In this document: in pieces, positions 23,863 to 53,655 of the stretch
Layout: each line of letters begins with the position of its first letter
Numbering within the stretch: position 1 is the stretch's first letter
Origin: Betaproteobacteria bacterium
Lineage (GTDB): Bacteria > Pseudomonadota > Gammaproteobacteria > Burkholderiales > Methylophilaceae
DNA length: 64,000 bases
Direction: 5' to 3'
Assembly: GCA_016867975.1 (NCBI GenBank)
Contig: VGIC01000005.1
Location: 1 to 64,000 of the forward strand
The notes under the pieces: generated by a model
Told to the model about the DNA's origin: nothing
Database searches by the model: none
Seen by the model: the letters and a program-made list of their open reading frames with translations, nothing else
Made by a program: the position numbers and the translations under genes

Positions 23863-24260
23863 ATGTGAAGCTGGCCGATAAGCCGGGTTCTGTCGCGCAT
23901 TGCTGCGCGTGACAGTCATTCATCTAGGCGCATGATTGCTCATGCGCTCAAGCAACCTACCCGCTGACGGCGCGAGCCACGCCAATGCCAGCCTATTTGG
24001 TCTTGCTGCGAATGGAGGTTACCGCGTTTCACGTCCATTACGGCGAACCGCAACTTACTCGTCTCTGTGGCCCTATTCCTCGCTTTTGTCATTCGACTTT
24101 TCAGTCTAGCGACTTATGGCGGACGGCCGTTAACCGTCATCCCGCTCTATGCAGCCCGGACTTTCCTCCCTCACTTCAAGGTGACCACAAGGGTCTCCCC
24201 CAATTTGCTATGCCAGTAAACTGGCAAGCAAAGCGTGATGGCGACTGTCTGGCCAGCTTC
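23863..24260 (-). ncRNA. rnpB: RNase P RNA, bacterial type A
   Basis: Catalytic RNA of RNase P, maturing tRNA 5' ends. About 398 nt. The 5' end GAAGCTGGCCAGACAGTCGC pairs with the 3' end GGCCAGCTTC (helix P1). The universally conserved GAGGAAAGTCCGGGCT, GACGGTTAACGGCCGTCC, GGGCCACAGAGACGAGT, GAAACGCGGTAACCTCC and the 3' ACAGAACCCGGCTTAT are all present. The P3 region is enlarged: between GTCGCC and GGGAGGAAAG there is an extra hairpin (TTTGCT...AGCAAA) that also occurs in dispersed elements of this genome. rnpB upstream of mraZ is common in betaproteobacteria. Ends are approximate to a few bases. Confidence 0.97.
24198..24238 (-). repeat. Element-derived hairpin inside RNase P RNA P3
   Basis: These 41 bases match 28646-28686 of the dispersed element with 39 identities, and the inverted copy near 31804-31844. 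They fold as TTTGCT-at-GCCAG-taaa-CTGGC-a-AGCAAA. The match lies within the P3 arm of rnpB, outside the conserved catalytic core. Confidence 0.8.
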
Positions 24261-28584: not shown

Positions 28585-28873
28585 GGGTGCTTCTATAAAT
28601 GCAGAGTTTGAGATATAGCATTACCCGTAAGCCAGTACTTGGCTTCCCCAATTTGCTAAGCCAGTAAACTGGCAAGCAAAGTGTGAAAGGGCATGTCCGT
28701 GGAATATATGCGCTGAAGCGCATTATTCACACGCCAAAGGCGGGGCGTCCTCAACCTCGCTAGATGCTGAAGCATCAAGTCGGTTGTGACGGAACGCAGT
28801 AATGCGCTCAAGTGATTTAAGCAGGCAATCAGCGAAGCTGATGCTCGCAAAAAATGTATTTATAGAAGTGCCC
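28585..28873 (+). mobile_element. MITE-like element, copy A
   Basis: 289-bp non-coding element. Its ends are inverted repeats: GGGTGCTTCTATAAATGCA on the left and the complement of GGGCACTTCTATAAATACA on the right. The interior is a string of hairpins: AAGCCA/TGGCTT (28629-28645), TTTGCT..GCCAG/CTGGC.AGCAAA (28652-28680), ATGCGC/GCGCAT (28708-28723), CGCC/GGCG (28732-28742), GATGCT/AGCATC (28763-28776) and GCAATCAGC/GCTGATGC (28825-28844). Flanks TTAA and GTAA are only similar, so any target duplication is imperfect. It occupies the coaBC-radC divergent promoter region. It contains no transposase. Confidence 0.8.
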
Positions 28874-31603: not shown

Positions 31604-31904
31604 GGGCACTTCTTTAAATACATTTCTTGCGAGCATCAGCTTCGCTGATTGCCTGCTTAAATCACTTGAGCGCATTACTGCGTTCCGTCACAACCGACTT
31701 GATGCTTCAGCATCTAGCGAGGTTGGGGACGCCCCGTGCGGGTGTGCGCCTTTGGCGTATGAATAATGCGCTTCAGCGCATATATTCCACGGACATGCCC
31801 TTTCACACTTTGCTTGCCAGTTTACTGGCTTAGCAAATTGGGGAAGCCAAGTATTGGCTTACGGGTAATGCTGCATCTCAAACTCTGCATTTATAGAAGC
31901 GCCC
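31604..31904 (-). mobile_element. MITE-like element, copy B (inverted)
   Basis: 301-bp copy of the same element in opposite orientation to copy A, differing by a handful of substitutions and a roughly 12-base insertion (GTGCGGGTGTGC) near 31737. Ends: GGGCACTTCT at 31604 and GAAGCGCCC at 31904. It is flanked by TAAA on both sides (31600-31603 and 31905-31908), a clean 4-bp target duplication. It lies between the TauE-like stop codon and cstA. Confidence 0.85.
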
Positions 31905-53570: not shown

Positions 53571-53655
53571 GGGCCCCTCTATCAATACATTTTTTGCGAG
53601 CAACCGCTTCGCTGATTGCCTGCTAAAGCCACTTGATCGCATGATTGCGTTGCGC
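53571..53655 (-). mobile_element. Degenerate end of the MITE-like element
   Basis: Starting 4 bases after the DUF2782 stop, GGGCCCCTCTATCAATACAT and the following 65 bases match the terminal 85 bases of copy B with scattered substitutions, including the TTTTTTGCGAGC and CGCTTCGCTGATTGCCTGC segments. Similarity fades near 53655 and no second terminus is found, so this is a truncated relic. Confidence 0.7.

Follow-up and report, generated by a model that had tools for sequence, protein, structure and literature searches.

Structured RNAs differ greatly among species in the length of their peripheral arms, the origins of which are mostly obscure. The gene for RNase P RNA (rnpB) in a 64,000-nucleotide stretch of a Methylophilaceae genome (the window) raises this question for a single arm: its helix P3 is extended by an extra arm, part of which recurs in a MITE-like repeat elsewhere in the window. 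What is this arm, and how did it come to lie in an essential ribozyme? Comparison with related genomes indicates that it is very probably a noncoding, dispersed two-hairpin mobile element of ~57 bp that inserted into P3; it may have been moved in trans. The origin of one essential-ribozyme arm would then be readable here as a mobile element, whose site is filled, empty, exchanged, or doubly filled from one relative to the next.

Sequence Shared by rnpB and a MITE-like Repeat

The features of the window are collected in Table 1. The rnpB match exceeds the gathering score over the full Rfam model, identifying the gene as a bacterial class A RNase P RNA. It is the one rnpB match in the window's genome assembly (G000, 92.7% complete) and alone in the window in reaching an Rfam gathering score. 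Positions 24198–24238, within the P3 arm, align without gaps to positions 28646–28686 of the MITE-like repeat with 39 of 41 identities, as the initial annotation had reported, and the adjoining base differs on both sides. The homologous unit extends beyond these 41 bases to a second hairpin, whose sequence has diverged. In the Rfam alignment of this gene, 54 bases in the P3 loop are unmatched.

Table 1. Positions of rnpB, the two-hairpin element, and MITE-like repeats in the window
Feature	Position	Strand	Evidence or detail
rnpB, RNase P RNA, bacterial class A	23863..24260	minus	RF00010, 220.7 bits (gathering cut-off 100), E 2.6e-70; model positions 1-367 covered
Two-hairpin element, ~57 nt, putative distal P3 arm	24183..24239	minus	R1 match 24176-24240, 62.3 bits; arm fold; boundaries by analogy with filled and empty sites
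Hairpin 1 (TTTGCT-T-GCCAG-TTTA-CTGGC-AT-AGCAAA), the hairpin of the initial annotation	24204..24232	minus	
Hairpin 2 (GACC-CTTGT-GGTC)	24183..24195	minus	
MITE-like repeat, filled, inverted ends GGGTGCTTCTATAAA / TTTATAGAAGTGCCC	28585..28873	no strand	
57-bp element in that MITE copy	28631..28687	minus	Site GCCC-T / TTAC-GGGT; R1 92.9 bits; empty sites in sister MITE copies
Second MITE copy, filled	31604..31904	no strand	93% identical
57-bp element in second MITE copy	31802..31858	plus	R1 89.6 bits, 31801-31865
Further member of the MITE-like family	53571..53654		

Searching with a hairpin pattern and a tolerance of up to 3 mismatches gives 3 hits in the window and none in any of 100 shuffles. 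A 40-base pattern is found at 4 places in the genome assembly, namely rnpB, the two MITE copies, and one contig end. That two palindromes came to be alike by chance or convergence is exceedingly improbable. P3 is peripheral and variable in length, and many hairpins might do at this position, but the shuffles gave no match, and a covariance model built without rnpB (R1, described below) recognizes the window arm with E 1.3e-16. We rejected a chance match on these two grounds.

The MITE-like family has ends GGGYRCTTCTATAAA and a mosaic interior, and 84 BLAST pieces of it occur in the 1.56-Mb genome. Among 19 stretches of this family, 8 have an empty site, which reads GCCC-TTCAC-GGG (L008), GCCC-TTTAC-GGG (L009, L011), GCCT-TTTAC-GGA (L010), or GCCC-TGTAC-GGG (L020, L022, L029, L030). 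Five are filled, with GCCC-T-[TTCACNC...]-TTAC-GGG or a near form: the two window copies, L007, L014 (filled with another stem), and L019 (in another repeat). In the other stretches, the site is partly deleted (L025), gone (L028, L033), or TTTAC with a different left side (a second L014 stretch), and in L015 and L024 no more than a hairpin-2-like piece is present, which the simple insertion scheme does not explain. Several MITE copies lack approximately query positions 71–127 in BLAST. Since filled and empty copies coexist, the MITE interior that had first been noticed is itself an invaded site, and the empty sites of other copies imply that the MITE and rnpB were invaded separately. We therefore rejected the MITE as donor. 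The initial annotation had offered two origins, an arm that is part of the MITE or a MITE that captured the arm from rnpB, and neither holds. Judged from these sequences, the shared unit is a separate, smaller two-hairpin element of ~57 bp that invaded both.

Genomes Sampled

The host genus comprises Methylotenera and GTDB's placements with Methylotenera within the Methylophilaceae; it is methanol-using. An rnpB match was found in 146 of 150 relatives, and the majority of the genomes are draft assemblies. We scored P3 in 84 rnpB rows, 47 from the genus (window included) and 37 from other genera of the family. The genus rows come from 46 of 52 genomes (G049 supplies two); G009 and G040 lack an rnpB match, and G023, G032, G034, and G048 have partial genes. 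In the rest of the family, 37 of 39 genomes were scored (G062 and G073 lack a match); the first 14 of these rows were chosen partly for long genes, and the remaining 23 were added later. The two rnpB genes of G049 (contigs C83 and C117) have different P3 arms within one assembly with 7% contamination and probably represent two species binned together. The apparent 480-nt length of the G022 gene (L085) stems from a run of N in P12, an assembly gap and not an insertion. Rfam finds no 6S RNA in any of the 52 genus genomes.

A Dispersed Two-Hairpin Element

The dispersed copies follow a common plan, 5'-TTCACNC, hairpin 1, TNGGGGAA, and a hairpin 2 ending in GGC or GGTC, and contain no gene. Two stem classes, TTTNCTTGCC and AGAATA, occur with these same feet. 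Searches for the exact feet return 74 matches from 28 of the 52 genus genomes, compared with 10 in 9 genomes for the pattern written backwards; a few of the 74 that lack a hairpin are probably chance matches. With up to 3 mismatches, the hairpin-1 pattern is found in 26 of 52 genus genomes (control 0), and in 7 of these 26 the rnpB arm is the only match. Across 35 non-rnpB copies, 97.3% of cells pair and 8 of 16 pairs are changed on both sides, with a covariation score of 0.318 versus 0.103 for shuffled alignments and at most 0.038 for slid controls.

R1 was built from these 35 copies and never trained on rnpB; its input was 34 of 56 non-rnpB copies, picked by eye for a clear hairpin 2 and few duplicates, plus the L014 copy. 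It matches 20 of 20 filled P3 arms, the weakest being that of G004 (23.6 bits), and 0 of 64 empty P3 helices. Other R1 matches in those rnpB loci lie downstream of rnpB, in the window MITE copies, or on the strand opposite these arms. The earlier proposal that a dispersed palindromic element makes the extra P3 arm is thus borne out. At E ≤0.01 and with rnpB arms included, whole-genome searches with R1 find matches in 49 of 52 genus genomes, in 12 of the 39 genomes of the family's other genera, and in 1 of 59 from other families of the order. In one genome each of 84,980 species, perhaps not including that of the window, an exact pattern occurs in 13 stretches: 6 in Methylotenera, 2 in Candidatus Methylopumilus, 1 in Methylophilaceae, and 4 in unclassified proteobacterial MAGs.

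Two further attributions were considered and set aside. Viral contigs contained 0 exact matches of one element pattern, and phage carriage was rejected on this count. A known Rfam family was likewise rejected as a name for the element: searches of 4 element loci gave 9 weak matches, none at the cut-off and none sharing more than 4 bases with the element.

The P3 Arm Among Relatives

P3 is filled in 19 of 47 genus rows and in 1 of 37 rows from other genera (G087). An empty P3 is a short stem and loop, most commonly G-CTCAC-GTAA-GTGAG among the first 41. The view that the extra arm is an insertion and not ancestral P3 is upheld by the empty helices in 28 of 47 genus rows and 36 of 37 rows of the family's other genera. 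The filled arms fall into type A (TTTGCT stem; G000, G011, G087), type B (TTTAACT stem; 11 rows, of which three lack hairpin 2), and type C (TTTATC stem; 6 rows).

The state of P3 appears to change often. A tree of the rnpB core (61 rows, P3 excluded) implies at least 10 filled/empty changes, although it is weakly resolved, with 24 of 58 inner branches open. An rpoB tree (30 of 41 genomes with rpoB; 28 scored) implies 5 and misses nine B- or C-arm genomes whose assemblies lack rpoB. More broadly, rpoB is absent from 11 of 52 genus genomes, 9 of which carry B or C arms. The window's genome groups by rnpB core with G016 and G018, both empty, and by rpoB lies on a long branch near G039 and G018. 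Two close pairs are informative. The rnpB genes of G043 and G020 are identical at 266/276 core, 94/101 downstream, and 43/105 upstream positions, and P3 is 72 nt long in G043 (arm C) versus 16 nt in G020 (empty). Those of G038 and G006 are identical at 95/100 upstream, 300/302 core, and 84/101 downstream positions and carry arm C and arm B, respectively. These differences indicate that the arm can change independently of the surrounding gene. In G011, a second copy is nested in the hairpin-2 loop of the first, giving a P3 of 129 nt versus 71–72 nt in other A arms; the nested copy resembles a dispersed copy in G087 (L277).

We weighed two alternative histories. In the first, the arm is an old part of rnpB, gained once in an ancestor, inherited and often lost, and the dispersed element escaped from rnpB. 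Arms A and C indeed have much of hairpin 2 and the following bases in common (GACCCTTGCGGTCTCCTT with variants) across distant rows, and the P3 arm persists as the only R1 match in the genomes of G006 and G046 (78% and 73% complete). This history is nevertheless improbable given the prevalence of empty P3 inside and outside the genus, the commonest form of which, an ordinary short stem ending in a GTAA loop, is not a scar. The recurrence of the element's ends in copies with unrelated AGAATA stems and the nested second copy in G011 likewise argue against it.

In the second, which we consider possible but doubtful, P3 arms spread mainly through exchange of rnpB segments between species after only two or three original insertions. 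C arms are near-identical in G038, G039, G042, and G043 (those of G038 and G043 fully so), and the cores of these genes lie apart in the tree; the C-for-B difference between the closely similar cores of G038 and G006 and the A arm of G087, a member of another genus, are also as exchange would predict. However, exchange leaves an insertion origin in place, and at least three insertions are suggested by the B arms, the A/C arms, and the copy nested in that of G011. Moreover, the A/C hairpin 2 occurs outside rnpB too. With up to 1 mismatch, GGGGAAGACCCTTGCGGTCTCC is found in 9 of 92 genomes, in the rnpB of the same four C-arm genomes and outside rnpB in 5 (G011, G012, G024, G033, G048), where it accompanies other hairpins 1 and lacks CTT. 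The A and C arms therefore need not descend from one another. Their likeness fits common descent with exchange as well as repeated insertion, and the insertion count is uncertain. Under our preferred reading of P3 as an invaded site, arms would be gained, lost, or exchanged repeatedly by insertion, by excision or deletion, or by recombination between rnpB alleles.

A possible trace of loss was seen in G090 (L358), whose P3 reads GTCAC-GCTTTGCA-GTGAG. Its 5' side contains the first 11 bases of an A arm (TCACGCTTTGC) and nothing more; this P3 is perhaps the scar of a lost arm.

Insertion Sites and Target Choice

Among 43 distinct insertions, the length is 57 in 34 and 56–59 in 42; these figures cover script-parsed copies after dropping near-identical flanks, and the parsing limits the lengths that are visible. 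The right flank has T at +1 in 40 of the 43 and TNA in 32. The left end is TTCAC irrespective of the right flank, which goes together with the lack of an evident target duplication, and duplication was accordingly rejected.

When the two flanks are joined, a stem of at least 5 bp (G–U allowed) forms in 7 of 22 site families versus 5.6% of mismatched flanks, a result reached in 0 of 5000 permutations; two of the 22 families (L002 and L014) are really one, and the right end is possibly mis-set in L014, L083, L157, and L219. Counting Watson–Crick pairs only, the figures are 4 of 22 and 1.9%. Loops of hairpins already present are overrepresented among the insertion sites. Some insertions lie in a loop of another copy, be it that of hairpin 1 or of hairpin 2 (L276, L129), others in the loop of a GTAG-type repeat (L200, L282), and one in a GCGC-TTTA-GCGC hairpin loop (L286). 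Fifteen of the 22 site families show no stem of this kind, those that follow the rnpB 3' end among them.

That end (GGCCAGCTTCAC) is a second seat of the element. R1 matches just downstream of it in 19 of 60 loci, with 1 more among 23 loci with shorter flanks, and copies within 150 nt after rnpB include L074, L085, L087, L097, L358, and others. They may reflect one old, decaying insertion or a favored site. We also considered tmRNA as a target and rejected it: the 37 of 52 genomes with a tmRNA over the cut-off, which do not include that of the window, all have genes of 349–368 nt, none invaded.

Applied to rnpB, the insertion rule predicts the site C / TCAC-GTAA-GTGAG; that is, the element would enter P3 before T-N-A. 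The arms start with (T)TCAC or ATCAC, and their ends range from TCCTTCAA-GTGAG to TCACGTAA-GTGAG. The TTCAC end of the element (ATCAC in the window) would replace CTCAC of the target as the partner of GTGAG and so restore the basal P3 stem. Relative to the common empty P3 of 18 nt, a full-length filled P3 has gained 54–55 nt instead of 57, which requires the loss of 2–3 bases.

A more far-reaching proposal, which we advance only tentatively and rate as somewhat less likely than its negation, is that the element picks its target by secondary structure, entering hairpin loops extruded in single-stranded DNA (or RNA). It would nest in its own hairpins, in REPs, and in rnpB P3, its TTCAC end would rebuild the stem of the host, and the P3 arm of this genus would be a domesticated, species-swapped mobile element. 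If targets are indeed chosen by structure, RNase P RNA would be a natural landing site for the element.

Folding of the Arm

In the minimum-energy fold of the whole rnpB, hairpin 1 forms, and hairpin 2 and the P3 stem do not. Folded alone, the arms of G000, G002, and the C type give P3 plus two hairpins, and the short B arm gives one hairpin. The G000 arm alone has a z of -2.28, with 1 of 200 shuffles as good. In the arm fold, hairpin 2 is lengthened by pairing of the G-rich linker with bases after the element; in the G002 B arm, it reaches 10 pairs using the linker.

We aligned 14 of the 20 arms (alignment A2), leaving out G004 (degenerate), G011 (nested), G026, G037, and G044 (short), and G043 (identical to G038). 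Overall, 94.7% of cells pair (hairpin 1, 99.4%; hairpin 2, 88.4%), and one of the hairpin-2 pairs is open in 8 of the 14 arms. Both sides are changed in 10 of 19 pairs, compared with a shuffled mean of 7.4 and with 12 of 500 shuffles reaching 10; further pair types are not above the shuffles (20 versus 21.5).

The arm would be tolerated in RNase P RNA because, with GTGAG paired to the element's end, neither the core nor the P3 base is disrupted. Pairing between the linker and the displaced target bases may in addition yield a stable arm able to outlive the dispersed copies. Such loci open the way to direct tests, both of cores that are almost alike but differ in having the arm and of the site choice of a tiny element that seemingly prefers hairpin loops.

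Relation to Known Repeats

Palindromic repeats are tolerated inside genes in the case of the Rickettsia palindromic elements, which the initial annotation named as a precedent within rnpB. A literature search, mostly of papers available without subscription, returned nothing on this element, on rnpB P3, or on Rickettsia palindromic elements with RNase P. Mobile double hairpins and repeats in rnpB are known in kind; new, as far as we searched, are this bacterial family and the repeated use of P3.

One precedent in rnpB comes from heterocyst-forming cyanobacteria, whose RNase P RNA gene likewise contains repeats, the STRR (Vioque 1997, as cited in PMC2858038). As the title of that work states, STRR are short tandem repeats, whereas the element here is a dispersed two-hairpin unit with constant ends, located in P3, and with empty alleles in sister species. 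In build, the element resembles the mitochondrial double-hairpin elements (Paquin 2000; PMC2800124), which are likewise dispersed hairpin doublets. It consists of two consecutive hairpins, is dispersed, and bears evidence of mobility, as does that class. The mitochondrial elements also occur in length-variable parts of rRNA genes and, according to the same account, are not removed from transcripts (PMC2800124). They are described from fungi and sponges, whereas the present element lies in a bacterial chromosome and in rnpB; the likeness is one of kind and not of homology.

REP/REPIN sequences and their RAYT proteins offer a further parallel as small noncoding palindromic units whose doublet has been proposed as the mobile unit (PMC2817692, PMC3116915). 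A REPIN, as characterized in PMC2817692, pairs one REP with itself and has GTAG- or GTGG-like feet. Here, the two hairpins are unlike in length and sequence in all 35 aligned copies, not an inverted pair of the same REP, and the feet are TTCACNC and TNGGGGAA, not GTAG- or GTGG-like. Nor does the element have the form of a MITE of a DDE transposon: its TTCAC and GGC/GGTC ends are not inverted repeats, and the left end does not change with the right flank.

Candidate Transposase

The element has no gene and would therefore be moved in trans. The likeliest mover, in our guess, is a hairpin-recognizing Y1 (HUH) transposase of the IS200/RAYT kind, and it is put forward as a candidate only. Y1 transposases match in 30 of 52 genus genomes. 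In one of them (G020, locus L200), a 147-aa Y1 protein (PF01797, 29.8 bits) is encoded between two inverted element copies, each in the loop of a GTAG-type repeat. RAYT genes are likewise flanked by inverted copies (PMC2817692, PMC3116915), and L200 is one such case; the repeats flanking its RAYT gene are of GTAG type, and the element sits in their loops. R1 matches 4 of the 30 Y1 loci examined, 3 of these within ~500 bp of the gene, compared with 0 of 30 rpoB loci, a gene-dense and hence lenient control; the inverted flanking pair occurs only in L200. By pattern and by R1, no autonomous copy with its own transposase was found near the 30 Y1 loci. IS200/IS605 elements are described as having neither terminal inverted repeats nor larger target duplications (PMC2817692), and reads consistent with excision of a REP doublet have been reported (PMC3116915).

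The mover might instead be a DDE, IS3-, or IS110-type enzyme that targets palindromes, which we regard as unlikely though not negligible. IS3- and IS110-family elements use REPs as targets, and IS1397, ISKpn1, IS621, and ISPsy8 enter REPs, ISPsy8 at the symmetry axis of a hairpin (PMC1525189). The sites here are enriched for hairpin loops. Those elements, however, are full insertion sequences with a transposase gene, whereas the present one is ~57 bp long without a gene. A 3-bp direct repeat is reported for such an IS (by context, ISPsy8; PMC1525189), and the lack of an apparent target duplication here is a better fit to Y1 enzymes as described in PMC2817692.

At two further loci, L195 (1850–2330) and L197 (1380–2250), Y1 genes lie inside layers of nested inverted repeats, with GTAGGAGCG repeats within CGGAGTGCCC arms. 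This layering looks as if hairpins had repeatedly entered hairpin loops.
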